A stretch of DNA of 38,731 nucleotides from a virus, in IMG/VR virus record IMGVR_UViG_3300021957_000111, positions 1 through 38,731 of that record; one strand, 5' to 3'. Made by a program: the position numbers and the translations under genes. The notes beneath the pieces are model-generated. The model was not told the origin of the DNA and did not search any database. It saw only the letters and a program-made list of their open reading frames with translations. Shown here one piece after another: positions 3,488 through 22,058 of this stretch. Numbering within the stretch: position 1 is the first letter of the stretch; every line of letters starts with the position of its first letter.

Positions 3488-4783
3488 ATGAGTAAAAATG
3501 TAGTAATGGTTGGAGCAGGTGTAGCAAATGTAAATGCTGCTACTAAGCTAATTGACAATGGTTTTAAAGGTAAAATTACCATAATTGATATGGGTAAAGA
3601 TCCATATTTAAGACCATATGAAGAGGTAATGACAGGTTTCTTAGGAGCAGGAGGTTGGTCTGATGGTAAATTAACTTATCACACTTCAATTGGAGGACAA
3701 TTATCTAAATATTGTGGTGAAGAAAAAGCAATGGAATTATTTGATCAGGTGATAGATAATTTTAAACGATTCCACCCTAAACCAGAAGAAGTACAATGTT
3801 CAAACCCAATAGCAGAACCAGAATTTATTAAACCATATTTCGGTTTACGTTTATTCCCTGTATGGCACGTTGGTACTGATTATTTACATGAAATAGGTAA
3901 AAATTGGTATGATTTCTTAGTTGATGGTGGTGTTGAATTTATTTGGGAAACCAAAGTTACAGATATTGATTTTGAAAATCAAATTGTATCTATAGGAGCA
4001 GTAGATGAAATGAAATATGATGAACTTATATTTGGTGTAGGCAAATCAGGTATTGACTTTGGTAAAGTATTAGCTGAAAAATACGACTTACCAACTGAAC
4101 CAAAACCAGTACAAATAGGTGTTCGATTTGAAGCACCACAAAAACACTTCCAAAAATTAATTGATGTATCTTATGATTTCAAATTATATAGAAAATATGA
4201 AGATGAGGGAGTATCATTACGTTCATTCTGTACAAACAACAACGCAGCTTATGTTGCTGTAGAAGAAACATATGGTGACCATTCATATAATGGACACGCT
4301 AAAAAAGATGAGGCGTTCCGAAATGATATGACCAATTTTGGTATATTAATGGAAGTACAAGGTATTGATAAACCATTTGATTGGTCTAGGGATGTAGTTA
4401 AAAAATTACAAATAGATGGTACAGGATTATATTATAGCCCCAGTAGAAAACCATCAACAACATCTGAAGGTGTAAATGTATCAGCTATACAAGTAGATAC
4501 ATTACATAAAATAACAAAAGCAATGCAACCATACTTTGCGTATGTGTATGATTTTATTGAAGATATGAAAAAAGTATTTCCAACACTTAAAGATGATTGG
4601 GGTATTTATATACCTGAAGTAAAGTATTTATCACCTGAGCCACTTGTCGATTATACTAATTTAGCCCTCACCAAGTATCCTAATGTACACTTTGTTGGTG
4701 ATGCTCTATCAGCTAGAGGTATAACAGTATCAGGAGCACAAGGGACATATGTAGCAGAAAGTATATTAAAAAACTTGGATTAG
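3488..4783 (+). CDS. FAD-dependent dehydrogenase/oxidoreductase (COG2509-like)
   Basis: The product has 431 residues. The N-terminal Rossmann dinucleotide-binding segment is VVMVGAGVANVNAATKL (residues 5-21), a G-x-G-x-x-N variant of the usual G-x-G-x-x-G, followed by an acidic residue ending strand 2 (TIIDMG). GFLGAGGWSDGKL (50-62) matches the 'GG-A-G-x-x-S-D-G-K-L' signature of the uncharacterised FAD-dependent dehydrogenase family. Further family-type blocks are KPVQIGVRFEAPQ and SFCTNNNAAYVAVEE. The C-terminal FAD-binding block is VHFVGDALSARGITVSGAQG (401-420). The length fits the family. The substrate is unknown; a cytosolic redox reaction in the infected cell is inferred. It sits alone between a terminator and a promoter-like box, surrounded by non-structural genes, like an acquired auxiliary metabolic gene. 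The Asn in the Rossmann motif is unusual and could affect cofactor binding. Confidence 0.85.
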   Translation: MSKNVVMVGAGVANVNAATKLIDNGFKGKITIIDMGKDPYLRPYEEVMTGFLGAGGWSDGKLTYHTSIGGQLSKYCGEEKAMELFDQVIDNFKRFHPKPEEVQCSNPIAEPEFIKPYFGLRLFPVWHVGTDYLHEIGKNWYDFLVDGGVEFIWETKVTDIDFENQIVSIGAVDEMKYDELIFGVGKSGIDFGKVLAEKYDLPTEPKPVQIGVRFEAPQKHFQKLIDVSYDFKLYRKYEDEGVSLRSFCTNNNAAYVAVEETYGDHSYNGHAKKDEAFRNDMTNFGILMEVQGIDKPFDWSRDVVKKLQIDGTGLYYSPSRKPSTTSEGVNVSAIQVDTLHKITKAMQPYFAYVYDFIEDMKKVFPTLKDDWGIYIPEVKYLSPEPLVDYTNLALTKYPNVHFVGDALSARGITVSGAQGTYVAESILKNLD

Positions 4784-5125: not shown

Positions 5126-5533
5126 ATGAGAGATCACACACTACAAGCTATGCCTTATCAAGGTGAACGTCATGAAAAAGCATGGGGTCATGAACTATGG
5201 ATTATTAATAATGAACTTTATTGTGGTAAATTATTAGTATTCAAAAAAGATAAATCATTTTCAATGCATTACCATCTGTTAAAAGATGAAGCATGGTATA
5301 TTTCTAAAGGAAAGTTCCAATATACCTACATTGATACAGAAATAGCTGAACAAATAGATATAATAGTAAAAGAAGGTGATTGTATCCATTTACTACCAGG
5401 ACAACCCCACCAAATGTTGGCCCTTGAAGAAGGAAGTTGTATATTTGAAGTATCCACTCAACATTTTGACAATGATAGTTATAGAGTAGGAAAAGGTTCA
5501 TCACAATTAGAACCTAAAAACTTACCATTTTAA
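5126..5533 (+). CDS. Cupin-domain protein, sugar-phosphate-isomerase-like barrel
   Basis: The product has 135 residues forming a single cupin. The N-terminal KAWGHELWIINNELYCGKLL resembles the 'WG-x-E-x-x-I-x-N' strand preceding the cupin of type II mannose-6-phosphate isomerases. Cupin motif 1 is SMHYHLLKDEAWYISKG, with candidate metal ligands His48, His50 and Glu55. Motif 2 is GDCIHLLPGQPHQM with His95. The metal-binding set is therefore complete. It could be a small sugar-binding or isomerase-type enzyme, or a sensor; the substrate is unknown. Its placement beside the oxidoreductase and a P-loop kinase suggests a metabolic accessory block rather than virion assembly. Confidence 0.8.
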   Translation: MRDHTLQAMPYQGERHEKAWGHELWIINNELYCGKLLVFKKDKSFSMHYHLLKDEAWYISKGKFQYTYIDTEIAEQIDIIVKEGDCIHLLPGQPHQMLALEEGSCIFEVSTQHFDNDSYRVGKGSSQLEPKNLPF

Positions 5534-5544
5534 ATAAATAAGTT

Positions 5545-6075
5545 ATGAAAATAGGATTATGTGGTACAATGAGTGTAGGTAAAACAACCCTAGTTAATGC
5601 TCTAGAAAATATACCAGAATTTAAGGGTTATAAATTTACAACAGAACGCTCTAAGGAATTAATGGATCAAGGTATTCCATTAAATACTGATTCAACATTA
5701 AAAGGTCAATGTGTGTTTTTAGCTGAGAGAGCAGGTGAACTAATGTATGAGGATATTATTACAGATAGAACAATTATTGATGTTATGGCTTTTTCTAATT
5801 GTTCAACATCTATGGATGCTATTGATAAAGATGATTTTGAAACACTGGCATCTAGATTGATTAAAGAATATGATTATATTTTTTATGTTTCACCTGAAGG
5901 GGTTGAAATTGAAAATAATGGAATAAGAGAAACTGATGCTGAATATAGGAAATCAATTGATTTTTCAATAACTAAACTACTAAATAGATATAGACATAGA
6001 ATAAAAAATCTATATACTATATCGGGTAGTACTGAAGAACGTATAAAATTAATTAAACAAGCAATTTCTTTGTGA
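5545..6075 (+). CDS. P-loop NTPase / nucleotide-kinase-like protein (AAA_28 type)
   Basis: The product has 176 residues. The Walker A motif is GTMSVGKTT (residues 7-15) right after the first beta strand. DRTIIDVMAF (residues 74-83) fits the Asp-Arg motif after strand 3 of kinases. EYDYIFYVSPEGVEIENNGI and ETDAEYRKSID match the substrate/lid region of the AAA_28 (NadR C-terminal-like) family, in which 'D-G-x-R-x-x-D-x-x-x-R-x-x-I-D' is typical. The length fits a single kinase domain without the nucleotidyltransferase half of NadR. Probable ATP-dependent phosphorylation of a small molecule such as a nucleoside or nucleotide precursor; substrate unknown. It lies 11 bp downstream of the cupin gene in the same direction. 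Confidence 0.82.
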   Translation: MKIGLCGTMSVGKTTLVNALENIPEFKGYKFTTERSKELMDQGIPLNTDSTLKGQCVFLAERAGELMYEDIITDRTIIDVMAFSNCSTSMDAIDKDDFETLASRLIKEYDYIFYVSPEGVEIENNGIRETDAEYRKSIDFSITKLLNRYRHRIKNLYTISGSTEERIKLIKQAISL

Positions 6076-6084
6076 TATTTATAA
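6075..6084 (+). promoter_or_regulatory. ATATTTATAA element 1 of 4
   Basis: ATATTTATAA followed by CAAAA lies 15 bp upstream of the ATG at 6100, and its first base is the last base of the preceding stop codon. The same 10-mer precedes three other genes at nearly the same distance. It may be a late-promoter element or a translation-start enhancer. Confidence 0.5.
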
Positions 6085-6099
6085 CAAAAATACACTATA

Positions 6100-6453
6100 A
6101 TGAAAAAATCAACCTTAAGAGATTCTATTAAAGCAGAAATTATTGAAATTTTATCTGAAGAAACAGCAGAAGATATTCAAGACAAAACAAGTGCTCAAGC
6201 TGAGTTGAATAAAGAACTAGAAAAAACTCAGGATTTGATGAAGGAAGATGAAGAAGAACCATCTTCTAAAGATTTAAAGGCTGGTAAAAAAGATTCTATA
6301 TCTAAAATTTCTAATAAACTACAACAAACAACTAAAGAAATGAAGTCAGTAGTTAAAAAATGGAAAAATGCTGATGGTAGTGAAAAAGATAAGTTAACAT
6401 CTCGTTTAAAAGAGTTAACTAAAATAAAGAAAGAACTTGAAGGCCTTCTTTAA
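6100..6453 (+). CDS. Small charged, probably coiled-coil protein
   Basis: The product has 117 residues and is very rich in Lys, Glu, Ser and Leu. The N-terminus MKKSTLRDSIKAEIIEILSE is an amphipathic helix of a type I remember from small proteins of marine T4-like phages. It is followed by heptad-like runs (AQAELNKELEKTQDLMKED; SRLKELTKIKKELEGLL), so a helical-bundle or coiled-coil structure is likely. The 3' end overlaps the next gene by 17 bp in another frame, implying coupling to the membrane protein. By position upstream of gp17 one could consider a gp16-like small terminase, but no helix-turn-helix or gp16 signature is visible, so I do not assign that. Confidence 0.75.
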   Translation: MKKSTLRDSIKAEIIEILSEETAEDIQDKTSAQAELNKELEKTQDLMKEDEEEPSSKDLKAGKKDSISKISNKLQQTTKEMKSVVKKWKNADGSEKDKLTSRLKELTKIKKELEGLL

Positions 6454-7027
6454 AAATATCCAAACACTACTTATAGTAGTATTAGTTGTAGTTATTCTTT
6501 TTATGAGATCTTGTGATGGGGGTGGGGGAAGTATTGAACCCAAAGTTATTACAAAGGTAGAAACTAAATGGGATACTATAACCATAACAAAAAATGTTTA
6601 TATTCCTAAATGGAAAACTAAAATAGTTACTGAAGTTGATTCTATTTTAATAAACGTTCCAATTGATACATTAGAAGTATTAAAAGATTATTATGCTAAA
6701 AATGTTTTTGTAGATGAAATTAAATTAGATTCATTAGGTGTAGTAACTATAACCGATACAATTTATAAAAATACAGTATGGAGAAGAGCAGTTGAATCTA
6801 ATATATTAATCCCAACAACAACAGTAACTAAAAAGATATATCTTAATAATAGAGAATTTTATTGGGGGTTAAATGTAGCTGGTAATAGAAACCAAATTAA
6901 CTATTTAGGTGGAGGAATATTATTTAAATCAAAAAGAAAAAACATATATGGCTTGGGAATTGGAGTTAATGAAAACTTCGAACCAATTATTTCAGCTAGC
7001 TATTATATGAAATTAGGTAAAAAATAA
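6437..7027 (+). CDS. Membrane-anchored protein with extracytoplasmic beta-rich domain
   Basis: The product has 196 residues. A single N-terminal hydrophobic segment (LLIVVLVVVILF, residues 11-22) after two lysines is followed by MRSCDGGGGS. The cysteine could be a lipid-attachment site, but Arg at -2 fits a lipobox poorly. The rest (VETKWDTITITKNVYIPKW, then alternating hydrophobic strands) is extracytoplasmic and beta-rich. It ends in glycine/aromatic-rich hairpins (YGLGIGVNENFEPIISASYY) like outer-membrane strands. This architecture would suit a lysis protein that spans the envelope, such as a unimolecular spanin, but no sequence signature proves it. An alternative is a superinfection-exclusion or other envelope protein. 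The stop overlaps the terminase start (TAATG). Confidence 0.75.
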   Translation: MKAFFKNIQTLLIVVLVVVILFMRSCDGGGGSIEPKVITKVETKWDTITITKNVYIPKWKTKIVTEVDSILINVPIDTLEVLKDYYAKNVFVDEIKLDSLGVVTITDTIYKNTVWRRAVESNILIPTTTVTKKIYLNNREFYWGLNVAGNRNQINYLGGGILFKSKRKNIYGLGIGVNENFEPIISASYYMKLGKK

Positions 7028-8601
7028 TGGGTCAGGATTTAAAACAAGTAATAAGACAAGAATATTTAAAATGTGCTAAAGATCCAGTCCATTTTATGAA
7101 AAAGTACTGTTTTATCCAACACCCCCAAAGAGGTAGAATACAATTTAATTTATACCCATTCCAAGAAAAAACCTTACATTTACTTAGAGATAACCCCTAT
7201 TCAATTATATTAAAATCAAGACAATTAGGTATATCTACATTATCAGCAGGTTATTCTCTGTGGTTAATGTTATTCCATAAGGATAAAAATGTGTTATGTA
7301 TCGCGACTAAACAAGAGACAGCGCGTAACATGGTTACTAAGGTAAAATTCATGTATGACAATTTACCATCATGGTTATCCATAAAAGCAGATGAAAATAA
7401 CAAACTATCACTTAGGTTAAAAAATGGGTCTATAATCAAAGCAACCTCAGCCTCAAGTGATGCAGGTAGATCCGAAGCAGTATCTTTACTATTAGTTGAT
7501 GAGGCAGCTTTTATTGATAATATTGGGGAAATTTGGGCATCAGCTCAACAAACACTAGCAACTGGTGGTGGTGCTATTGTATTATCTACACCTTATGGTA
7601 CTGGAAATTGGTTCCATAAAACTTGGGTTAATGCTGAATCAAATGAAAATCAATTTTTACCTATTAAATTACCTTGGTGGGTTCACCCTGAAAGAAACCA
7701 AGAATGGAGAGATGCACAAGATTCATTATTAGGTGATCCTAGATTAGCAGCCCAAGAATGTGATTGTGATTTTAGCACATCAGGTGATATAGTATTTCAT
7801 TCTGAATGGATTGATTTTTTACAAGAAACTACTATTCAAGACCCAGTAGAACGTAGGGGTGTTGATCAAAATCTATGGGTTTGGGAAAATGCAGATTATT
7901 CAAGAGAATATATGGTAGTAGCAGATGTTGCTCGAGGAGATGGTAAAGATTTTTCAGCATGTCATGTAATGGATATAGCAACTAATACTCAAGTAGCTGA
8001 ATATAAAGGACAAATGCCTCCAAAAGAATTTGGATTCTTTCTTACAGGGTTAGCTACAGAGTATAACAATGCAATGTTAGTAGTAGAAAATGCTAATATT
8101 GGATGGGCAACATTAGATGCAATTAGAGAAAGAGGATATAGAAATTTATACCAATCACCAAAATCCGACCAGCGTACAGCAGAATCATATTTAAGAGTAT
8201 ATGAAGGTAACTCAGAAATGGTACCTGGGTTTACTATGTCAATGAGAACAAGACCTCTATGTATTAATAAATTTAGAGAATTTGTTGGTGATAAATCCGT
8301 GACTATTCGCTCAAAACGTTTAATAGAAGAAATGAAAGTATTTGTTTGGAGGAATGGAAGACCAGAAGCTCAAACAGGCTACAATGATGACTTGGTTATG
8401 TCATTTGGGATAGGTATGTTTCTACGAGATACATCATTGAAATTCCAACAGCAAAGTTTAGATATGGCTAGGGCAGCATTGGGGAATATAAAATCAAATA
8501 AATCACCATATAGTGGTGGTTTTTCAGGTAATAAGGGTGTTAGTAATCCATATGGTATGGATGTTGGCGGTAAAAACGAAAGCATTAAATGGCTTTTATA
8601 A
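7027..8601 (+). CDS. 17: Terminase large subunit, gp17-like packaging ATPase/nuclease
   Basis: The product has 524 residues, close to but shorter than T4 gp17 (610). The N-terminal ATPase has a Walker A of the classic terminase type at SRQLGIST (64-71), Walker B LLLVDEA with the catalytic Glu (154-160), and the coupling motif IVLSTPYGTG (184-193). The C-terminal RNase H-like nuclease has acidic residues Asp300 (VVADVARGDGKDFS), Glu354 (LVVENANIGW) and Asp455 (GYNDDLVMSF), matching the catalytic triad pattern of gp17. The enzyme docks on the portal, cuts concatemeric DNA and pumps it into the prohead. The tail (residues ~485-524) is Gly/Ser/Asn-rich. The portal gene follows 23 bp downstream. 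Confidence 0.97.
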   Translation: MGQDLKQVIRQEYLKCAKDPVHFMKKYCFIQHPQRGRIQFNLYPFQEKTLHLLRDNPYSIILKSRQLGISTLSAGYSLWLMLFHKDKNVLCIATKQETARNMVTKVKFMYDNLPSWLSIKADENNKLSLRLKNGSIIKATSASSDAGRSEAVSLLLVDEAAFIDNIGEIWASAQQTLATGGGAIVLSTPYGTGNWFHKTWVNAESNENQFLPIKLPWWVHPERNQEWRDAQDSLLGDPRLAAQECDCDFSTSGDIVFHSEWIDFLQETTIQDPVERRGVDQNLWVWENADYSREYMVVADVARGDGKDFSACHVMDIATNTQVAEYKGQMPPKEFGFFLTGLATEYNNAMLVVENANIGWATLDAIRERGYRNLYQSPKSDQRTAESYLRVYEGNSEMVPGFTMSMRTRPLCINKFREFVGDKSVTIRSKRLIEEMKVFVWRNGRPEAQTGYNDDLVMSFGIGMFLRDTSLKFQQQSLDMARAALGNIKSNKSPYSGGFSGNKGVSNPYGMDVGGKNESIKWLL

Positions 8602-8602
8602 T

Positions 8603-8612
8603 ATATTTATAA
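8603..8612 (+). promoter_or_regulatory. ATATTTATAA element 2 of 4
   Basis: ATATTTATAA followed by TAAAA lies 12 bp upstream of the portal ATG at 8625, in the only gap between the terminase and portal genes. It is identical in core to the elements at 6075, 10531 and 17961. Confidence 0.5.
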
Positions 8613-8624
8613 TAAAATAATAAC

Positions 8625-10523
8625 ATGGCAGATACAGGTTTATTTTCAAGATTAAGAAGATTATTCTCTACAGACGTAATTATACGTAATGCTGGAGGTA
8701 ATCAACTTAAAGTCTTTGATGTTAATAAAATGCAACAATCGGGGGAAATAGAAACAAATTCTCTAGTAGATAGATTTAATAGAATATATTCTAACTCATC
8801 AACCTCACTATGGGGTCAACAAGCTGGATATAATTATCAATATTTAAGACCTCAACTTTATGCTGAATATGATTCAATGGATACAGATGCAATTGTAGCA
8901 TCTGCTTTAGATATCATAGCTGATGAATCTACTCTTAAAAATGAGTATGGAGAGGTGTTAACAATCAAATCCTCAGATGAAGATATTCAAAAAATACTAT
9001 ACAACTTATTTTATGATGTTTTAAACATTGAATTTAACCTTTGGCCTTGGGTTAGAAACCTAGCCAAATATGGTGATTTTTTCTTAAAATTAGAAATAGC
9101 AGAAAAGTATGGAGTATATAATGTAATCCCTTATACAGCATTTCACATTGAAAGAATAGAAGGAGGAGATTTAGGCAATACTGAAAATGCTATGGATGTT
9201 AAGTTTAGATTTGATCCTGCTGGTATTGCAGCTTCAGATTATGGATATTATAATGTTCCAAATCAAGAAAACCAACCAAATGCTATTATATTTGATAATT
9301 ATGAAATGGCTCATTTCCGTTTATTAACAGATATGAATTTTTTACCATATGGTAGAAGTTATATTGAACCAGCTCGTAAATTATTTAAACAATACATTTT
9401 AATGGAAGATGCTATGTTAATTCATAGGATTGTCCGCGCCCCAGAAAAACGTATTTTTTATATGAATGTTGGATCTATCCCTCCAAATGAGGTAGATGCC
9501 TTTATGGAAAAAACTTTAAGTAAACTTAAGCGTACTCCTCATGTAGATGAAAAAACAGGTGAGTATAACTTAAATTATAACATGCAAAACTTATTGGAAG
9601 ATTTTTATATTCCTTTAAGGGGTAATGATGCGAGTACTAAAATTGAAAGTGCAAATGGTTTACAATGGGATGGTATTCAAGATGTTGAGTATTTAAGAGA
9701 TAAATTATTTGCTGCTCTTAAAGTACCTAAAGCATTTATGGGTTATGATGAAAATACAGATGGTAAAGCTACATTAGCTGCCCAAGATATTAGATTTGCT
9801 CGTACAATTGAAAGAATACAAAGAATAATAATATCAGAATTATATAAAATAGCATTAGTTCATTTATACACTCAAGGTTATAAAGATGAACAATTATCTA
9901 ATTTTACATTAGATTTAACTACACCTTCAATAATTTATGATCAAGAAAGAGTAGCATTAATGAAGGAAAAGATGGATTTAGCTCAACAAATGACTGAAAC
10001 TAATCTATTCCCATCTGATTATATTTACGACCATTTATTCCACTTAAGTGAAGACCAATATGATGATTATAGAGATCTAATTAGAGAAGATGCTAAACGT
10101 AAATTTAGAATTGACCAAATAGAAGCAGAAGGTAATGACCCAGTTGAAACTGGTCAATCATATGGTACACCTCATGATTTAGCCTCATTATATGGTAAAG
10201 GTAGAATGTATTCAGATCCAGGTGGAGTACCAAAACCTGATGAATATGCTAAAGATGAAAAAACAGTTTTAGGAAGACCAAAAGAAAAAGCATCTAAGAG
10301 AAATACTCAAGATGATAATTTTGGTAAAGATAGATTAGGAAGAGATGGAATGAAAAATGATTACAATAACCCATCAAAATCAGGTTTAGCTTTAGAAAAT
10401 AATATCCATATTTCTAAACATCAATCTATGTTAAAATCAATTCCTACTGGGAAAAGATTAGTATTTGAGCAAGATAGCGAAGAAAGTTCGCTTCTTGATG
10501 AATCAAATATCAAGGAACAATAA
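8625..10523 (+). CDS. 20: Portal vertex protein, gp20-like
   Basis: The product has 632 residues (T4 gp20 has 524), with extra length in a charged C-terminal tail. Family blocks are LRPQLYAEYDSMDTDAIVAS, LRPYGRSY-like FLPYGRSYIEPARKLFKQ, APEKRIFYMNVG and GYDENTDGKATLAAQD followed by RFARTIERIQR. The last is the most diagnostic stretch of T4-type portals. It should form the dodecameric ring at one capsid vertex, serve as the site of prohead initiation and terminase docking, and act as the DNA channel. The last ~130 residues are Lys/Asp/Gly-rich and look disordered, and are not part of the conserved core. It lies between the terminase gene and the three unknown genes leading to the protease. 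Confidence 0.96.
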   Translation: MADTGLFSRLRRLFSTDVIIRNAGGNQLKVFDVNKMQQSGEIETNSLVDRFNRIYSNSSTSLWGQQAGYNYQYLRPQLYAEYDSMDTDAIVASALDIIADESTLKNEYGEVLTIKSSDEDIQKILYNLFYDVLNIEFNLWPWVRNLAKYGDFFLKLEIAEKYGVYNVIPYTAFHIERIEGGDLGNTENAMDVKFRFDPAGIAASDYGYYNVPNQENQPNAIIFDNYEMAHFRLLTDMNFLPYGRSYIEPARKLFKQYILMEDAMLIHRIVRAPEKRIFYMNVGSIPPNEVDAFMEKTLSKLKRTPHVDEKTGEYNLNYNMQNLLEDFYIPLRGNDASTKIESANGLQWDGIQDVEYLRDKLFAALKVPKAFMGYDENTDGKATLAAQDIRFARTIERIQRIIISELYKIALVHLYTQGYKDEQLSNFTLDLTTPSIIYDQERVALMKEKMDLAQQMTETNLFPSDYIYDHLFHLSEDQYDDYRDLIREDAKRKFRIDQIEAEGNDPVETGQSYGTPHDLASLYGKGRMYSDPGGVPKPDEYAKDEKTVLGRPKEKASKRNTQDDNFGKDRLGRDGMKNDYNNPSKSGLALENNIHISKHQSMLKSIPTGKRLVFEQDSEESSLLDESNIKEQ

Positions 10524-10530
10524 TTTTAGT

Positions 10531-10540
10531 ATATTTATAA
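10531..10540 (+). promoter_or_regulatory. ATATTTATAA element 3 of 4
   Basis: ATATTTATAA followed by AAAAA lies 14 bp upstream of the ATG at 10555, just after the portal gene. Confidence 0.5.
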
Positions 10541-10554
10541 AAAAATAGGTATTG

Positions 10555-11421
10555 ATGTATATAAAACACTCAAAATTTAAAAATACTGGTATTTTATTCG
10601 AAGTAGTAGTAAGAAAAATTACTTCGGAAACCTTATCAGGCAAGGACTCCCCAGCTATTAATATTCTTAAATCTCACTTCGTCAATACTGAATTAGGGAA
10701 AGAGTATAAATTGTATGAAACCCTATTTAATTCAAAAGGGTTAAATTCTCTTAAAGCAACTGCTGTATTAGATACAGTTTTAGAGCAATCTAAAAAATTA
10801 AACAGAACTGCAATTAGAAAAGAAAAATATAGTTTAATAAAATCATTAAAAGAGCACTATAATGTAGAAGGTTTATTTAAAACCAAACTTAATGATTATA
10901 AGGCACAAGCTTCTTTTTATACCTTAATTGAAACTTACAATACTAAAAAATTAATAGACCCTAATCAAATAGTTGATAATAAAGTAACATTATTAGAATA
11001 CTTAACATCAAAATCAGTAGATAGAGATAATGTAAAAGAAAATGTAATCGAAGAATTTAAATCTCAAGATGCAGACATTCGTACTTTAACATATCATATT
11101 ATGTTAGAAAACTTTAATAATAAATATTCTTCATTAAACAAAAGACAAAAATATATTCTTAAAGAATTTATTGAATCAGTAGATAATACCCCATCATTAA
11201 AAGAATTTTATAATAAAGAAGTTAATTTTATCAAAGAAGAAATTACTAAACAATTAAAAGTTGTTTCAAGTGAAGTGATTAAAATTAAATTAAATGAAGT
11301 ACATTCATTAATTAAAGAATTAAATAAAAGAACAGTTATTAATAGTAAGCATTTAGTGGATTTGTTGCAATATCATTCATTATTAGAAGAATTAAAAAAA
11401 TCAAATGGGGCACAAATATAA
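10555..11421 (+). CDS. Conserved helical protein in the prohead-core slot, unknown function
   Basis: I chose the ATG at 10555 (288 residues); a TTG codon directly before it would add one residue but is less likely. The start MYIKHSKFKNTGILFEVVVRKI and the following text are mostly alpha-helical and Lys/Glu/Leu-rich, with no signal peptide, membrane segment or catalytic motif. I remember the 'K-F-K-N-T-G-I-L-F-E' start from conserved hypothetical proteins of marine T4-like phages. It lies between portal and protease, where T4 has core genes 67 and 68, so a role in the prohead core or portal assembly is plausible but unproven. The 3' end overlaps the next gene by 17 bp. Confidence 0.85.
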   Translation: MYIKHSKFKNTGILFEVVVRKITSETLSGKDSPAINILKSHFVNTELGKEYKLYETLFNSKGLNSLKATAVLDTVLEQSKKLNRTAIRKEKYSLIKSLKEHYNVEGLFKTKLNDYKAQASFYTLIETYNTKKLIDPNQIVDNKVTLLEYLTSKSVDRDNVKENVIEEFKSQDADIRTLTYHIMLENFNNKYSSLNKRQKYILKEFIESVDNTPSLKEFYNKEVNFIKEEITKQLKVVSSEVIKIKLNEVHSLIKELNKRTVINSKHLVDLLQYHSLLEELKKSNGAQI

Positions 11422-12211
11422 ACTAAAAGAGGTTGAAGTAGGTGATAAAGAAGTTCGTGATGGATTTCTATCTACAGTAACTGATATAGACTCAGAAACT
11501 GGTGCTATAACTTGGGATATTCTACAAATACCTAATTTAGATAAGCTATTAGATGAATCAGATGATTTAGTTAAAACAGCTAAAGGGGTTTATGTTAAAG
11601 CTAAAGATGATAAAAAATTTCTAGAAATATATGAAGATTCTAGAAAATTAAGAAATATCATACGAACCCACATTCGAAACAATTACCCAGAAGAATATAA
11701 AAAATCAAGGGGAGTTAATGAAACTGATTTAGATGAAATGTCTACAACAGGTGGAGGAGCAGGTGCTGCTTCATTTACGGGAGGTACTGGGATGCAATAT
11801 GCAACCCCTTATGCCTTTAAAAAACCAAAAAAGAAAAAGAAAAAACCCGTACAAGAAGGAATAGGAGCATCATTAGGTCCAGGCCCTAAAGCAAGTGAAA
11901 ATGGGGTTAAAGATAATGCTTATGTAAAGCAATTTAAATACAAATTAGTTCCAAAAAAAATTAAAGGGTCAGGTTTAGAAGTTAAACAATTATTTGAAGA
12001 TAGTGATGTTAAGTCATTCCAACAAGAAAGAATATCATCATTCGATGTGATTGAGCAAGAAATGAATGATATTTATAAGATGTTGAGCAATGCTAAAAAT
12101 GAAACTAATGATTACTACTCAGAAAATCCAGGTTCATTTGAGGTGATTAAACCAACAGATTTAGTTTTAGACTATATAAAAGACATAAAAGACTTATTAA
12201 AAGGAAAATAA
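11405..12211 (+). CDS. Conserved phage head-assembly-region protein, unknown function
   Basis: The product has 268 residues with three parts. The N-terminal ~95 residues form a mixed domain (YKLKEVEVGDKEV, DSRKLRNIIRTHIRNNYPEE). A low-complexity linker follows with DEMSTTGGGAGAASFTGGTG, ATPYAFKK and a Lys/Pro run (KKPKKKKKKPVQ). The C-terminal helical part includes VKSFQQERISSFDVIEQEMN. The Gly-rich linker type recurs in marine T4-like phages. L-D-E just before it is a possible gp21 protease site, so the protein might be cut during maturation (inference). It is coupled to both neighbours: a 17-bp overlap upstream and direct abutment with the ATG at 12212. Confidence 0.85.
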   Translation: MGHKYKLKEVEVGDKEVRDGFLSTVTDIDSETGAITWDILQIPNLDKLLDESDDLVKTAKGVYVKAKDDKKFLEIYEDSRKLRNIIRTHIRNNYPEEYKKSRGVNETDLDEMSTTGGGAGAASFTGGTGMQYATPYAFKKPKKKKKKPVQEGIGASLGPGPKASENGVKDNAYVKQFKYKLVPKKIKGSGLEVKQLFEDSDVKSFQQERISSFDVIEQEMNDIYKMLSNAKNETNDYYSENPGSFEVIKPTDLVLDYIKDIKDLLKGK

Positions 12212-13330
12212 ATGAAAACATTACAAGAACAATACAACCAAATTAAAAAGGGAAAAGGTAGTAAAGAAATTTTCCTTAAAGAAGTTAAATCTAAGTATCC
12301 CAATTTAGTACGTAATGCTGCTGGGTTTGGAGAAGCATCTTCTGCTTTAATTAAAAGAAGTATTATATCAGAAAATATTCATGTAGCCACAGGCTCAACT
12401 GAAAAACCAGATTGGTTTAAATTATTTGATAAAAATATGAATTTAATATCTGAGGAAGAAGCTAAAGCTATTGAAAAAAAAGTAACTAAAGGAGTAACTG
12501 ACTTACAAGCCCCTAACAGGGGATATGATTATAAAGATGATAAAGCTCTTGATAATATACCTGGTGAACAGTTTCGTCAAGGTTATTATACAGAGTTAAC
12601 AGATGTAGCTAATGAAGATAAAACTAAACAAGAATTAATTGATTTAGTTATTAAAAATATTAGTAAAAATCCTTTATACTATGTTGAAGAAGCTCAATTT
12701 GGAATTAAAGGAATAGGCTACACAGAAGAAGCACCAGCTTTAGGTAAAGGAAAAATGGTTAAAGACCCTGGTGTAGGTGGAGGTTATGGTGCTGAAACTA
12801 AAAAAGACTTCCCAGAAGGTGAAGTAGGTACTGGTTATATAGAAATTAAAGAAAACAAAAACACAACACATATGATATCATTATTAGACTTATACGAAAG
12901 CGGTCCTTTAGGAGAAAAAGAATTACCTAAGAAAAAAGCTAAAAAAGTAAAAAAAGAAACAACAGATAGCAAATTAGCTGAAATTGAAAAGAATGGAAGA
13001 ATTGCTACTCTAGAATTGCAAATAAATGCTTTAGATGAAATAATTGAAGGTAAAAATGGTAGGATTTCTATGGTAACTGAAGATGATAGTTTATCTGAGT
13101 TAGTAGATAAGAAGAAAATGAAAGAAATGCAACGCGAAGTAAAACTTTTAGAAAAGAAAAAAGCGGGCATGGAAAAAATGTATGAGAAAATGTGTGGTAA
13201 AGCATATAAGAGAGTTGTAGATGAAGGTAGCAATGATAATAGTAACCTAGGCAGTAACGAAGATAGTAATGAAAACTCTAATGAAAACCCAGAGTCATAT
13301 TCAGGACTAGAAAAATTTAAAGAAGACTAA
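12212..13330 (+). CDS. Conserved head-region protein with coiled-coil tail, unknown function
   Basis: The product has 372 residues. The N-terminus (MKTLQEQYNQIKKGKGSKEI, then FLKEVKSKYPNLVRNAAGF) resembles conserved hypothetical proteins preceding the protease gene in marine T4-like phages. The middle is Gly/Lys-rich and probably flexible (GYTEEAPALGKGKMVKDPG). Residues ~265-330 are a predicted coiled coil (LAEIEKNGRIATLELQINAL; KKKMKEMQREVKLLEKKK). The C-terminus is a Asn/Ser/Glu run (DEGSNDNSNLGSNEDSNENS). I-x-E sites such as IISE near residue 55 could be protease targets. Position and composition suit a prohead core protein, but there is no direct proof. The next start lies 1 bp after the stop. 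Confidence 0.83.
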   Translation: MKTLQEQYNQIKKGKGSKEIFLKEVKSKYPNLVRNAAGFGEASSALIKRSIISENIHVATGSTEKPDWFKLFDKNMNLISEEEAKAIEKKVTKGVTDLQAPNRGYDYKDDKALDNIPGEQFRQGYYTELTDVANEDKTKQELIDLVIKNISKNPLYYVEEAQFGIKGIGYTEEAPALGKGKMVKDPGVGGGYGAETKKDFPEGEVGTGYIEIKENKNTTHMISLLDLYESGPLGEKELPKKKAKKVKKETTDSKLAEIEKNGRIATLELQINALDEIIEGKNGRISMVTEDDSLSELVDKKKMKEMQREVKLLEKKKAGMEKMYEKMCGKAYKRVVDEGSNDNSNLGSNEDSNENSNENPESYSGLEKFKED

Positions 13331-13331
13331 T

Positions 13332-13934
13332 ATGAGTCAATTATTAGTAGAAACCCATGTCTTTAAACCCAATAAGGTAAGACTATCTGAAAACAAATCA
13401 GGTAGAGGTCTTCCCTTAGTTGAGGGAATATTAGCTACAGCTGAAGTAAAAAATGGCAATGGTAGATACTATTCAAAAGATTTATGGGATAGAGAAATAG
13501 ATAAATATATGCCCTTAGTTAAAGAGCATAGAGCAATGGGTGAATTAGACCATCCTGAATCTTCAGTAATTAACTTAAAAAATGTATCCCATAATATCTC
13601 TGATATGTGGTGGGATGGAGATAATGTAATGGGTAAAATAGAAATTTTACCAACCCCAGCTGGTAATATTCTTAAAGCACTTATTGAAAGTGGTATTACA
13701 GTAGGTGTTTCATCTCGTGGTATGGGCTCATTAGAAGATAAAGGTGGAGTAATGGAAGTACAAGATGATTTTGAATTATTGTGTTGGGATTTTGTATCAA
13801 CACCTTCCAATCCTGGTTCATATATGCAGTTAGTACAAGAAAGTAAGGAATTTAAATCCCAAGATAAATATAAAACAGTAAATGAAATTTTAGGTGAAAT
13901 TCTATGTTCACATGGATTTTGCCCAGTTCAATAA
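13332..13934 (+). CDS. 21: Prohead core protease, gp21-like
   Basis: The product has 200 residues, near T4 gp21 (212). The beta-barrel start LPLVEGILATAEVKNGNGRY is followed by the catalytic His block MGELDHPESS (His74), the Ser block GVSSRGMGS (Ser127/128) and the acidic strand CWDFVSTPSNPG (Asp153). This is the layout of herpes-assemblin-like phage prohead proteases. The enzyme sits in the prohead core, is autoactivated, and cuts scaffold, core proteins and the N-terminus of the major capsid protein after (L/I)-x-E. It is the likely processing enzyme for the three small proteins at 2237-3360. A terminator follows 20 bp after the stop. Confidence 0.95.
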   Translation: MSQLLVETHVFKPNKVRLSENKSGRGLPLVEGILATAEVKNGNGRYYSKDLWDREIDKYMPLVKEHRAMGELDHPESSVINLKNVSHNISDMWWDGDNVMGKIEILPTPAGNILKALIESGITVGVSSRGMGSLEDKGGVMEVQDDFELLCWDFVSTPSNPGSYMQLVQESKEFKSQDKYKTVNEILGEILCSHGFCPVQ

Positions 13935-13953
13935 TTTTACCCCCTGATTTCCT

Positions 13954-13986
13954 AAAAAGGCGTTTCCACTCTTGGAGCGCCTTTTT
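13954..13986 (+). terminator. Rho-independent terminator after the protease gene
   Basis: A 9-bp stem AAAAAGGCG / CGCCTTTTT, with further inner pairing TCCA/TGGA, ends in a T-run at 13982-13986 followed by GTATTTTT. It closes the packaging/portal/protease unit and separates it from the scaffold and capsid genes. Confidence 0.88.
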
Positions 13987-14010
13987 GTATTTTTATATCT
14001 CCTCATATAC

Positions 14011-14023
14011 GTATAATTGATAA
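14011..14023 (+). promoter_or_regulatory. Late-promoter-like GTATAATTGATAA, scaffold/capsid unit
   Basis: The 13-mer GTATAATTGATAA occurs here and again at 17161-17173, both times just after a terminator and before a gene. It contains a TATAAT-type core and resembles the T4 late-promoter octamer TATAAATA. The start would lie about 10 bp downstream, giving a leader of ~90 bases before the ATG at 14119. Confidence 0.55.
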
Positions 14024-14024
14024 T

Positions 14025-14045
14025 ATGCCATTTCTTATATGGCAT
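14025..14045 (+). other. Leader hairpin 1 of the scaffold/capsid transcript
   Basis: A perfect 7-bp inverted repeat ATGCCAT / ATGGCAT with a 7-base loop lies immediately downstream of the promoter-like element. If transcription starts near 14025-14030 the hairpin would be at or near the 5' end of the mRNA, a position known to stabilise transcripts. No T-run follows, so it is not a terminator. Confidence 0.5.
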
Positions 14046-14070
14046 CAAAAGAATTATTTACAACCCCCAT

Positions 14071-14090
14071 TACGTTTCTTAATAAACGTA
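14071..14090 (+). other. Leader hairpin 2 of the scaffold/capsid transcript
   Basis: A perfect 7-bp inverted repeat TACGTTT / AAACGTA with loop CTTAAT ends 28 bp before the scaffold ATG. It may affect mRNA stability or translation. AGGA seven to ten bases before the ATG at 14119 is one of the few Shine-Dalgarno-like sequences in the window. Confidence 0.45.
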
Positions 14091-14118
14091 GTTTCCCAAC
14101 AAAAAATTTAGGAAAAAA

Positions 14119-15405
14119 ATGAACAGAAACTTTTTAAACGAAGCAATCGCTGACGCTAAAGCTGTAAAAGAATCAGCAATAGCAAATGCAAAAGTCGCGT
14201 TAGAAGAAGCATTCTCTCCACAAGTCCAAGCCATGTTTGCTAGCAAGCTAGAAGAAATGGAAAATGAAGACAATGTGGAAGAATCTTATGATGACGTAGA
14301 CGAAGCTGAAATTACAGAAAAAAAAGAGTACATGACCAAAAAGGAAAAACGTGAAGGTGATGATCGTAAGTCTGATAACAAGGCTGAGACCAAAACTGAA
14401 AAAATGCGTAAAATCAAAGAGGAAAGTGAATTCAATTTAGATGAAATTTTAGCAGAACTAGAAAAAGATGAAAATCTTGAAGAAAATAAACGTACAGATG
14501 CTGAAGAAGAAGGCTACTTAGATGGTATGAAAGACGAGAAAGAAGATCTTGATGAAGATGCTCGTACTGATGCTGAAGAAGAAGGCTACTTAGACGGAGA
14601 AAAAGACGAAAAAGAAGACATGGAAGATGAGGACATTGACCTCGAAGATATGTCAGAAGATGATCTTAAGAAATTTATCGAAGACGTAATCGAAGATATG
14701 GTTGAATCAGGTGAAATTGAAGCTGGTGAATCATTCGAAGAAGACGAAGAAGACGTTGATGTTGACATTGACGTAGAAGACGATGTTGAAGTAGAAGAAT
14801 TAGAAGAAGGATTACTTAATGAAGAACCTGTTAGTATAGGTCTAGTAGCTGCTGGTGTAGCTTCTTTATTAGGAGGTTCTGCTGCCTTAAGCAAAGCTTT
14901 AGAAAAAGCTGAAAAAGGTGATCTTGGACCTAAAGCTAAGAAATTAGCAGATTTACTTGGTAAAGCAGGATCCTCAGCTTCAGATGTTACTCAACAAAAA
15001 GGTGTTAAAGAAGTAGAAGATGTTGATGAAATTAAAGTAGATTTAGATGAAGCAATGTCTACCATTGAAACATTAAAATCTGAATTAAATGAAATCAATT
15101 TATTAAATGCTAAACTACTTTACACAAACAAAGTGTTCCGTGGTAAAAATCTTACTGAAGCACAAAAAGTTAAAGTATTAGGAGCTTTTGATAGAGCTGA
15201 AACAGTTAAAGAAGTAAAATTAGTGTTCGAAACACTTAATAGTTCAGTTAAAGCGAAAGCTACAAACAAATCTATTACAGAAGGTGTTAGAGCAAAAGGT
15301 AGTGCTTCTAATTTAACAGCAACTCCAAAAGTAACTAAGAAACAACCTATTGTTGAATCAAATGAGATGGTTAACAGGTTCAAGAAATTAGCTGGTCTAA
15401 TTTAG
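14119..15405 (+). CDS. 22: Prohead core scaffold protein, gp22-like
   Basis: The product has 428 residues, longer than T4 gp22 (269). It starts MNRNFLNEAIADAKAVKESA, then has an extremely acidic central region (residues ~50-240) including a tandem 24-residue duplication (see 14491-14634). The C-terminal helical segment contains ELNEINLLNAKLLYTNKVF, GKNLTEAQKVKVLGAFDRAE and the ending MVNRFKKLAGLI, typical of gp22-type scaffolds of marine T4-like phages. Many (L/I)-x-E sites fit destruction by the prohead protease. It assembles the core around which gp23 polymerises and is later cleaved and lost. A short hydrophobic, Gly/Ala-rich stretch (residues 235-260) is unusual in such an acidic protein. 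It has an AGGA Shine-Dalgarno-like site. Confidence 0.9.
   Translation: MNRNFLNEAIADAKAVKESAIANAKVALEEAFSPQVQAMFASKLEEMENEDNVEESYDDVDEAEITEKKEYMTKKEKREGDDRKSDNKAETKTEKMRKIKEESEFNLDEILAELEKDENLEENKRTDAEEEGYLDGMKDEKEDLDEDARTDAEEEGYLDGEKDEKEDMEDEDIDLEDMSEDDLKKFIEDVIEDMVESGEIEAGESFEEDEEDVDVDIDVEDDVEVEELEEGLLNEEPVSIGLVAAGVASLLGGSAALSKALEKAEKGDLGPKAKKLADLLGKAGSSASDVTQQKGVKEVEDVDEIKVDLDEAMSTIETLKSELNEINLLNAKLLYTNKVFRGKNLTEAQKVKVLGAFDRAETVKEVKLVFETLNSSVKAKATNKSITEGVRAKGSASNLTATPKVTKKQPIVESNEMVNRFKKLAGLI
14491..14634 (+). repeat. Tandem 72-bp duplication inside the scaffold gene
   Basis: Two adjacent in-frame 72-bp units starting at 14491 and 14563 both encode RTDAEEEGYLDG-(M/E)-KDEKED (19 residues) plus a variable acidic spacer. 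The DNA copies differ at several synonymous sites, so the duplication is not very recent. Confidence 0.85.
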
Positions 15406-15446
15406 TAAAAATTAAAAATTAATAATAAAACTTAAATTAAAAAAAA

Positions 15447-17099
15447 ATGAGTCAATTAAATTCTCTTTTAGAAAGTGCTAATCCTTACAAGTCGCTACAA
15501 AGTGATGCGGCTAGATTAGCAAACAAATGGAATAAGACAGGTTTATTAGAAGGTATCGGAAACGAAACTGAAAAAAACAATATGTCTCTTATTCTTGAAA
15601 ACCAAGCTAAGCAATTAGTTATGGAAGAAAGTAATACAGGAGGTCCACTTCCTGGAGCTGGTACATTTACTCCTGGTACAGGAGCACAATGGGCTGGAGT
15701 TGCTTTACCATTAGTAAGAAAAGTATTTGGACAGATAGCAGCGAAAGAATTCGTTTCTGTACAACCAATGAACTTACCTTCTGGTCTAGTATTTTACTTA
15801 GATTTCCAATATGGAACTACAAAAGCGCCATTCGCAGCTAACGAGTCACTATATGGTGATACTGATGGAAACCTTCCATTTGGTAACGGTGCTACAGGTG
15901 GTCTTTACGGAGCTGGACGTTTCGGATATTCAATCAACAACACACAATCAGCTGCTGAAACAGATGGTACAAACTTTGTAACAGATGCACTTACAGATGT
16001 TGATTGGTATGCTGATTTACAAGCTGATTCTTCAGTATCTGCATCTTATGTAGCTGGAGAAATTTCTTTAATTCAAATTGATCTTACAGCACTTCCTAAC
16101 TATGACACTAGAGGTGTAAAAGGATTTTATTTAGTAGATGGTACAGATACTGCTCCAACAGTAGCTAACCAATTACCACAATTTACAAAAATTGATGGTG
16201 CTAAATTAAACTTCTACATAGTTAACACAGGTTTAGTTGATGCTGCAACATTTAATGTAGAGTATTTACTACAAACAAATGATGCTCAAAGAGGTGATTT
16301 TGAAGATGGTAACAACAACTTAAATGCTGATAATTCACCAATTTCAATTCCAGAAATCAACATTCAAATGCAGTCAGAAGCAATTGTTGCTAAGACTCGT
16401 AAATTGAAAGCAGTTTGGACTCCTGAGTTTGCTCAAGATTTAAATGCTTACCATTCTTTGGATGCTGAAGCTGAATTAACTTCAATTATGAGTGAGTATA
16501 TCTCATTAGAAATTGATTTAGAAATTCTTGATATGTTAATCGAATCTGCATCTGCTGGTACTGAGTACTGGAGTGCACAGAATAACTTAGCATTAAATGC
16601 AACAGGAGTTTTAGATAGCGATTTAGGATTCTATAATTCACAAGGACAATGGTTCCAAACTTTAGGAACTAAAATGCAGAAATTGAGTAACATAATTCAC
16701 CAGAAAACATTAAGAGGTGGAGCTAATTTTATGGTATGTTCTCCAACAGTAGCTACTATTATCGAATCTATTCCAGGATTTGCTAGTACTTCTGATGGTG
16801 ATGCTGCTAAAATGAGCTACGCATTCGGTGTACAAAAAGCTGGTACTATCAACTCAAGATATACTGTTTATAAGAACCCATACATGACTGAAAATACCAT
16901 TTTAATGGGCTTTAGAGGTGGACAATTCTTAGAAGCAGGTGCTGTATTTGCTCCATACATTCCATTAATTATGACTCCTCTAGTATACGATCCAGAAACC
17001 TTCACACCACGTAAAGGATTACTGACTCGTTACGCTAAGAAAGTAGTGAGACCAGAATTTTATGGTAAGATCTTCGTAGAAGGTTTAAACACTCTATAA
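15447..17099 (+). CDS. 23: Major capsid protein, gp23-like
   Basis: The product has 550 residues (T4 gp23 has 521). The N-terminal region to be removed contains candidate gp21 sites LLE (ending residue 35) and ILE (ending residue 51), just before MEESNTGGPLPGAGTFTPG. The core carries family blocks: GVALPLVRKVFGQIAAKEFV, then SVQPMNLPSGLVFYLDFQYG; LKAVWTPEFAQDLNAYHSLD; GANFMVCSPTVATIIESIPG; and the ending YAKKVVRPEFYGKIFVEGL. It forms the hexamers of the HK97-fold shell. Upstream lies a 41-bp AT-only-like gap with no terminator, so it is co-transcribed with the scaffold. A strong terminator follows at 17126. Confidence 0.97.
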   Translation: MSQLNSLLESANPYKSLQSDAARLANKWNKTGLLEGIGNETEKNNMSLILENQAKQLVMEESNTGGPLPGAGTFTPGTGAQWAGVALPLVRKVFGQIAAKEFVSVQPMNLPSGLVFYLDFQYGTTKAPFAANESLYGDTDGNLPFGNGATGGLYGAGRFGYSINNTQSAAETDGTNFVTDALTDVDWYADLQADSSVSASYVAGEISLIQIDLTALPNYDTRGVKGFYLVDGTDTAPTVANQLPQFTKIDGAKLNFYIVNTGLVDAATFNVEYLLQTNDAQRGDFEDGNNNLNADNSPISIPEINIQMQSEAIVAKTRKLKAVWTPEFAQDLNAYHSLDAEAELTSIMSEYISLEIDLEILDMLIESASAGTEYWSAQNNLALNATGVLDSDLGFYNSQGQWFQTLGTKMQKLSNIIHQKTLRGGANFMVCSPTVATIIESIPGFASTSDGDAAKMSYAFGVQKAGTINSRYTVYKNPYMTENTILMGFRGGQFLEAGAVFAPYIPLIMTPLVYDPETFTPRKGLLTRYAKKVVRPEFYGKIFVEGLNTL

Positions 17100-17125
17100 T
17101 CAATAGATTATAATTAATAGTAATT

Positions 17126-17155
17126 AAAGCCCCGCATTAGCGGGGCTTTTTTTTT
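17126..17155 (+). terminator. Rho-independent terminator after the major capsid gene
   Basis: A perfect 10-bp stem AAAGCCCCGC / GCGGGGCTTT with tetraloop ATTA is followed by a T-run to 17155. It is the strongest terminator in the window, as expected for a highly expressed capsid transcript. Confidence 0.95.
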
Positions 17156-17173
17156 AATATGTATAATTGATAA
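17156..17173 (+). promoter_or_regulatory. Late-promoter-like AATATGTATAATTGATAA before PhoH gene
   Basis: It directly follows the terminator T-run. AATATGTATAA is shared exactly with 22038-22048, and GTATAATTGATAA exactly with 14011-14023. It lies 15 bp upstream of the ATG at 17189. Confidence 0.55.
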
Positions 17174-17188
17174 ATAAATAGTTTTTAA

Positions 17189-17935
17189 ATGAAAAAAAAT
17201 ATGGCATCTAAACCACACACAGATGAAGTACACAGAAAACAAAGAGTAGTAAAAAATCCAATAAAATTTAAAATAACATTAAACGAAGAACAAAAAGAAG
17301 CAAAAGCAAAAATATTACAAAATACAATAGCAATGTTAGCTGGTAAAGCAGGTTCAGGTAAAACCCTTTTAGCAGTACAAGTAGCATTAGATGGTCTTCT
17401 TAGAAGACACTATGATAAAATCATAATCACCAGACCTACAGTGTCAAAAGAAGAAATAGGTTTTTTACCTGGTGATTTAAGAGAAAAAATGGATCCTTGG
17501 ATTCAACCTATTTACCAAAATATGTATGCTCTTTATAATAAAGAAAAAATAGAAAAACTTATTGAAGATGGTAAAATAGAAATAGTTCCATTAGCATTTA
17601 TGAGAGGTAGAACATTCTTAGATTCATGTATAATTGTAGATGAAGCCCAAAATGTTACCCATGAACAAATGGAAATGATAGCTACCAGAATAGGTTTACG
17701 TTCTAAAATGATTGTATGTGGGGATGATCATCAAGTTGATTTAAAATCAAAACGTGAGTCCGGATTTAGGTTTTTATATAAATCAATGCGTACTATTAAA
17801 AATGGTATTGGTATAACTTTACTCAAAAACCATAGAGACCCTATTGTTGATGATTTAATTCAAGTATATGAAAAAGCAAGTGCCCAAGGTATAAATTTAG
17901 GATCTTCAGGCACTAGTGGTAGAAACAAAAAATAA
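17189..17935 (+). CDS. phoH: PhoH-like ATPase
   Basis: The product has 248 residues. It has Walker A GKAGSGKT (52-59), Walker B with catalytic Glu IIVDEAQN (148-155), and PhoH family blocks IIITRPTVSKEEIGFLPGDL, MRGRTFLDSCII, ATRIGLRSKMIVCGD and GITLLKNHRDPIV. The length matches a single PhoH domain. PhoH proteins are widespread in marine T4-like phages. Their biochemical role (ATP-dependent RNA-related helicase or ribonuclease partner, phosphate-starvation link) is not settled, and in phages it is unknown. An alternative start at 17201 is possible (MASKPHTDE). Here it splits the head genes from the neck genes and is preceded by its own promoter-like element. Confidence 0.93.
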   Translation: MKKNMASKPHTDEVHRKQRVVKNPIKFKITLNEEQKEAKAKILQNTIAMLAGKAGSGKTLLAVQVALDGLLRRHYDKIIITRPTVSKEEIGFLPGDLREKMDPWIQPIYQNMYALYNKEKIEKLIEDGKIEIVPLAFMRGRTFLDSCIIVDEAQNVTHEQMEMIATRIGLRSKMIVCGDDHQVDLKSKRESGFRFLYKSMRTIKNGIGITLLKNHRDPIVDDLIQVYEKASAQGINLGSSGTSGRNKK

Positions 17936-17960
17936 TTTTATATATTAAATAAATTCTTAT

Positions 17961-17970
17961 ATATTTATAA
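17961..17970 (+). promoter_or_regulatory. ATATTTATAA element 4 of 4
   Basis: ATATTTATAA followed by CAAAA lies 12 bp upstream of the ATG at 17983. Confidence 0.5.
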
Positions 17971-17982
17971 CAAAATTCAAAC

Positions 17983-22037: not shown

Positions 22038-22051
22038 AATATGTATAAATA
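22038..22051 (+). promoter_or_regulatory. Late-promoter-like AATATGTATAAATA before the fibre genes
   Basis: It contains the exact T4 late-promoter octamer TATAAATA at 22044-22051 and shares AATATGTATAA with 17156-17166. It lies 7 bp before the ATG at 22059, so a transcript from it would have almost no leader. It would drive the fibre gene and the giant gene behind it. Confidence 0.55.
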
Positions 22052-22058
22052 AAATTAG

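Follow-up and report, generated by a model that had tools for sequence, protein, structure and literature searches.

The 38,731-nt viral fragment IMGVR_UViG_3300021957_000111 (positions 1 to 38,731 of an IMG/VR record; hereafter the window) raises the question of what is specified by a 10-mer, ATATTTATAA, that recurs shortly upstream of start codons. An earlier note on this DNA had proposed either a near-leaderless promoter or an element replacing the Shine-Dalgarno (SD) sequence. The analysis of the window and its relatives points to the first of these: ATATTTATAANAAAA is very probably the late promoter of a distant T4-like ('Far-T4' type) lineage of flavobacterial phages, most likely served by a gp55-like sigma factor and predicted to give near-leaderless mRNAs in most operons.

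Exact copies of ATATTTATAA are located on the + strand at 6075, 8603, 10531 and 17961. They are followed by CAAAA, TAAAA, AAAAA and CAAAA, respectively, and end 15, 12, 14 and 12 nt before an ATG, in line with the 12–15 bp of the earlier note (for the copy at 10531, the 14 nt lead to the ATG at 10555; an alternative TTG at 10552 lies at 11 nt). A fifth + strand copy, missing from that list of four, occurs at 12069–12078 within the open reading frame (ORF) 11405–12211, where it is followed by GATGT rather than AAAA; it is considered a chance occurrence. Over the whole window, one of the five copies is thus intragenic and the minus strand carries none. Dinucleotide shuffles of the window (n = 100) contain 0.43 copies on average and two at most, and none of the 100 reaches five. 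A position weight matrix, with the window kept out of its training, gives the four exact sites scores of 16.4 to 19.0. With genes named by their start positions, these sites are 6075–6089 upstream of gene 6100 (core octamer 6076–6083; score 19.0), 8603–8617 upstream of the portal gene (17.1), 10531–10545 upstream of the gene following it, portal+1 (16.4), and 17961–17975 upstream of gene 17983 (18.7). The same matrix also picks TATGTATAA variants at 17158 and 22040, both on the + strand: the box ATATGTATAA before PhoH (17157–17171; score 11.1) and the box ATATGTATAAATAAAA before gene 22059 (22039–22053; score 15.5). A further site was found at 2156 within a small ORF, and the copy at 12069 does not appear among sites scoring ≥6.

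The relatives used for comparison are IMG/VR contigs found through one protein, the capsid protein, of which 80 out of 599 were kept. Their genes were called from ATG only, longest first, with a minimum of 60 aa (50 aa for the 163-kb relative G001). The contigs are redundant, and 153 of their 299 sites are non-redundant at <60% flank identity. Relative L006, whose major capsid protein is 100% identical to that of the window, was excluded from matrix training, the leader search and the junction test described below. Among isolates, the nearest record is Flavobacterium phage immuto (58.5% identity in the capsid protein, 58% in the terminase), followed by Microcystis phage Mel-JY01.

Of the 720 upstream regions in the window and the 80 relatives, 297 contain TATTTATAA, which is the commonest 9-mer there. 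On the + strand it occurs 307 times within 40 nt before a start, 23 times in genes and 30 times elsewhere in intergenic DNA. The corresponding minus-strand counts are 56, 20 and 7, and many of the 56 probably reflect overlap with the near-palindrome TATTTATAAATA. Counted as + strand k-mers, TATTTATAA tops all 9-mers in upstream enrichment (290 of 25,085 upstream vs 30 of 1,098,716 genic) and ranks first among the 126 permutations of itself. The matrix derived from the relatives alone has the consensus ATAT[T/g]TATAAn[a]AAA. In immuto, CTATTTATAA and ATATTTATAA precede structural genes.

The box is conserved at particular gene junctions. The window encodes a T4-type head module with large terminase (7027), portal (8625), protease (13332), major capsid protein (15447) and PhoH (17189) genes. 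The portal gene (8625–10523, +; gp20-like) matches phrog_213 (E 1.2e-58) and the major capsid protein gene (15447–17099, +) matches phrog_138 (E 1.1e-71). Starts orthologous to those of the window were inspected in the relatives, leaving out the window itself and omitting orthologues whose alignment begins after residue 25, which lie <70 nt from a contig start or which have no ATG within 60 nt. The box was found at the portal start in 33/48 relatives, at portal+1 in 49/53, at PhoH in 27/61, at gene 17983 in 12/13, at gene 19307 in 37/52 and at gene 22059 in 3/6. The junctions that carry it include those of portal, portal+1, PhoH and neck, and it lies there before late or structural genes. It is seldom present at the terminase start (3/43) or at gene 20472 (2/52). 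No box was found at the intra-operon starts of the protease (0/63) and major capsid protein (0/76) genes, nor at the starts of genes 11405 (0/25), 12212 (0/42), 14119 (0/5) and 21061 (0/48). G001 has 36 + strand sites, of which 32 precede a start by no more than 60 nt. Structural blocks or their surroundings hold 21 of the 32, and the replication block at 69.1–78.1 kb holds none of them. The late timing of the promoter is inferred from this gene content. A G+C content of about 30% in the region might suggest that the boxes are AT-rich words arising by chance in intergenic DNA of similar composition. The shuffles, the 126-permutation comparison and the conservation at junctions refute this explanation, which retains practically no probability.

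The earlier note had also described a fixed distance to the start codon, and this did not hold. Box-to-ATG spacing is variable, mostly 8–20 nt within a range of 1–57 nt, and about 100 nt at the capsid operon. Spacing does peak at 12 and 15 nt, as could be expected of an element that takes the place of the SD sequence and is read by the ribosome at a fixed distance. The AAA tail is likewise best kept close to the ATG, in 20/20 sites at 8–10 nt, 39/43 at 11–13 nt, 17/28 at 14–16 nt, 11/19 at 17–19 nt and 16/33 at ≥20 nt, and flavobacteria are described as preferring A at positions -3, -6, -12 and -13 of their starts (PMC6847099). The tail may therefore be part promoter and part A-rich translation start region of the Bacteroidetes type. 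An SD-replacing role for the box as a whole is nevertheless very unlikely, given the range of spacings and its absence before intra-operon genes. In Mel-JY01, moreover, box and SD coexist as separate elements: TATTTAT(A/G) lies 32–36 nt before six starts (nine matches fall within 60 nt of a start overall), and SD-like words precede 23/42 starts, compared with 4/27 in the window, 10/232 in immuto and 21/33 in T4. Over the 50-kb stretch of Mel-JY01, TATTTAT(A/G) has no strand bias (15 on +, 13 on -). Because of the variable distance, the coexistence of box and SD in Mel-JY01 and the ~100-nt capsid leader, the element is better read as a single-box late promoter than as an SD substitute; of the two possibilities in the earlier note, the near-leaderless promoter stood. 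Phage-encoded ribosomal protein bS21 was considered as a link to translation and gave no lead: PF01165 was found in one of the 13 records searched, as a gene in Mel-JY01 (L184:22183-22410), and not in the other 12.

The late box stands alone. In the 153 non-redundant sites, information content stays at or below 0.32 bit at every upstream position beyond the box and its flanks. A weak recurrence of A about every 10 nt, peaking at -10, -20 and -29, was also noticed upstream. A separate, putative early class is present in immuto, where 14/14 non-redundant upstream TAT[AC]TTTA[GA] sites, mostly at 60–76 kb, are bipartite (TTG-N20-TATATTTAG). In the immuto records (L086-L089), mostly between 60000 and 76300, the putative early promoter AGTTG-N20-TATATTTAGGTATCAATAATTAAAA, similar to that of host sigma-A, is repeated before small genes of unknown function. 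These early sites bear on the idea that the box is itself a host sigma-A promoter (TAnnTTTG at -7) from which middle or late genes are transcribed. The sites at 8603, 10531 and 17961 read TATATTTA, which is close to TAnnTTTG and common to the immuto putative early promoters. However, only 23% of the 299 sites have the T that is required two bases ahead of the core, the final G is replaced, and late boxes in immuto are often CTATTTATAA. The late sites also show no signal for the TTG/TTTG near -33 of Bacteroidetes sigma-A; a TTG 20 nt upstream is lacking there, unlike in all 14 early sites. A host sigma-A promoter is accordingly unlikely.

A different relation to T4 was raised by the earlier note, which pointed out that the reverse complement of ATATTTATAA includes the T4 late octamer TATAAATA; the octamer is indeed there. 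Read as such, the boxes would be leftward promoters on the minus strand. This is extremely unlikely: the box is spaced relative to + strand starts, and the capsid-operon variant TACGTATAA lacks TATAAATA on either strand. That the octamer occurs on the minus strand is probably a coincidence: of the 1229 genes called in the window and its relatives, 1225 lie on the + strand, and a leftward promoter would find hardly anything to transcribe. The coding strand of the box reads TATTTATA, with two substitutions relative to TATAAATA, which therefore indicates a variant T4-type late system; among the window sites, TATAAATA itself is on the coding strand only at 22040. An identical script applied to T4 as a control recovered TATAAATA with 12/18 copies upstream. 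T4 late promoters are described as a single box with no -35 element (PMC2988020), placed at -13 to -6 (PMC1524935). As to the register of the -10 box, the window-type sites agree with T4 when read as TATAAnnA, but ATAYKTAT is all that the variants of the capsid operon and of Mel-JY01 have in common. From the T4 geometry, RNA would start ~6 nt past the octamer, near 6089, 8617, 10545, 17171, 17975 and 22053, with predicted leaders of 11 nt (ATG 6100), 8 nt (8625), 10 nt (10555), 18 nt (PhoH), 8 nt (17983) and 6 nt (22059).

The capsid operon is headed by a variant box. Between this variant, TACGTATAA at 14008, and the start codon of gene 14119 lie ~100 nt, and the same arrangement is found in many relatives. 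The promoter variant ATATACGTATAA spans 14006–14021 on the + strand (core 14008–14016), with a predicted +1 near 14021 and ~98 nt to the ATG. The leader region extends over 14006–14118, with an immuto counterpart at L088:25505-25633. In the window fold, a two-hairpin RNA (14025–14092, +) is predicted, with stem 1 at 14025–14031/14039–14045 and stem 2 at 14069–14077/14084–14092 (fold z -3.14). Stem 1 begins 9 nt downstream of the core and ~5 nt downstream of where RNA is predicted to start, which fits a start ~6 nt after the box. In an alignment of 27 sequences, 97.1% of cells pair vs a shuffled mean of 86.1, and both partners vary in 8 of the 14 consensus pairs; these double-sided changes amount to 61 cells vs 21.7 by shuffling, and 0/500 shuffles reach 61. 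A covariance model derived from the 27 sequences finds the leader at E ≤3.3e-5 in the window and in 66 of 79 relatives, 26 of which had contributed training rows, at one place each. Weaker matches were obtained in immuto (E 2.3e-4), L035 (0.01) and LR756508 (0.13). Mel-JY01 has no match at E ≤1, and two hairpins are discernible by eye only (L184, ~23760–23870). Rfam returned no match in the window at the gathering threshold. The leader seems to be a previously undescribed RNA element.

A protein of sigma-2 type is encoded in relatives and is a candidate for recognizing the box. The phrog_234 (T4 gp55) profile matches one gene each in immuto (E 0.008) and G001 (E 3.8e-5) and none in three shorter records; the two are mutual orthologues with 46% identity. 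The immuto gene, a weak match, is located at 78174–78872. Profile-profile comparison (hhalign) with eight T4-like gp55 proteins gave E 5e-4 and a probability of 31%. The AlphaFold2 model (mean pLDDT 70) superposes on region 2 of sigmaE over 93 residues (2.9 Å, Z 9.9) and on sigma70 over 101 residues (3.3 Å, Z 10.1), to be read with the caveat that helical models readily reach middling Z. With the whole model, Foldseek gave no match at E ≤0.001, and most of the best 50 matches listed are sigma factors. A search of solved structures by sequence with the sigma alignment returned a weak phospholipase match only. T4 gp55 (7D7C; the names 7D7C and 7D7D are taken from PMC7892883) is absent among the structure-comparison matches listed, which is uninformative either way. 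Judged from the model and the profiles, a gp55 counterpart is plausible, not proven. In both phages (L092:1465-2571, L093:1435-2512) the gene is followed by a conserved gene of 113–116 aa (59% identical over the matched part), whose product might be a co-factor.

A consistent mechanism can be proposed. A single -10-type box, unaccompanied by an element at -35/-33, would head the structural-gene operons and point downstream. A phage gp55-like sigma together with the host RNA polymerase core would most likely open it once replication has taken place, in the manner of T4 gp55 at TATAAATA. Transcription beginning ~6 nt past the octamer would give most late mRNAs leaders of ~6–18 nt, mostly too short for an SD sequence, which is rare in these phages anyway. 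The AAA after the box would overlap the A-rich initiation region favored by ribosomes of Bacteroidetes, the presumed host phylum, and the transcription and translation signals would therefore be nearly fused. At the capsid operon, the variant box (ATAYGTAT) would start a leader of ~100 nt opening with a conserved hairpin.

Several observations weigh against this interpretation. The relatives-only matrix finds sites in 356 of 698 upstream regions, leaving about half without one, and the RM378 and LR756508 stretches lack the + strand upstream pattern (0–2 copies). In G001, 11 of the 32 upstream sites, at 79–128 kb, precede metabolic or hypothetical genes. The coding-strand octamer departs from that of T4 at two positions. 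The sequence link of the candidate sigma to gp55 is weak by both profile comparisons, its C-terminal half has no recognized fold (Foldseek matches all at E ≥1.1), and general scans of the window, a fragment, did not detect such a gene.

A broader picture, in which a large, widespread lineage has rebuilt late transcription for SD-less hosts, is put forward tentatively, at somewhat less than even confidence in all its parts together. In it, a gp55 that has diverged and carries an additional C-terminal domain without a recognized fold would read ATAYKTAT boxes merged with the start of translation, so that leaders measure 6–18 nt. The capsid operon alone would combine a G-core variant with a long two-hairpin leader of covarying pairs, by which the most abundant late mRNA would be protected or regulated.

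Other features of the window were also noted. The phrogs and pfam scans name no function for genes 6100, 10552 and 22059. Metabolic-type genes occupy 3488–4783 and 5126–5533 (dehydrogenase-like and cysteine-dioxygenase-like), with a thymidylate-kinase-like gene nearby at 5545. An ORF of 4977 aa at 23419–38352 has repeated matches to collagen-like tail-fibre families, and there the G+C content rises from ~31% to 45–48%.

No promoter work on these aquatic T4-like phages was found in the open-access literature, the part covered by our search, to which subscription papers and preprints did not belong. For widespread aquatic T4-like phages, the results yield a late-promoter consensus that can be put directly to the test, along with a candidate sigma and predicted starts. 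They also offer an example of how a T4-type late program can be adapted to hosts that initiate translation without SD pairing. A changed sigma paired with a changed box could help to find the DNA-reading residues of gp55.

Compared with known systems, the window carries the Far-T4 genes gp17, gp20 and gp23, as well as PhoH adjoining the capsid gene, a trait reported for Far-T4 phages (PMC4360716), and immuto has queuosine genes as in Far-T4 clade 1; the text of that paper contains neither 'promoter' nor 'motif'. Like the Flavobacterium sigma-A promoter (TAnnTTTG/TAHHTTTG; PMC6847099, PMC9723704), the late box is AT-rich, lies just 5' of short leaders and shares some letters. It differs in that neither the first T nor the final G is conserved, and the immuto putative early promoters fit the sigma-A pattern better. 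With the T4 late promoter (PMC2988020, PMC1524935) it has in common a single -10-type box lacking a -35 element, AT-rich DNA downstream and a position before structural genes. A distinct early class also recalls T4, whose TATAAATA depends on gp55, gp33 and gp45, and the candidate gp55-like sigma in relatives may do so as well. The differences from T4 are that TATTTATAA, with variants TATGTATAA and TACGTATAA, replaces TATAAATA, that the box is nearer the start codon (mostly 8–20 nt) and that SD-like words are rare. A changed late box in a T4-like phage has a parallel in Aeromonas phage Aeh1, where the altered box CTAAATA starts at -12 (PMC1524935); there the changes are other ones and the host is a gammaproteobacterium.

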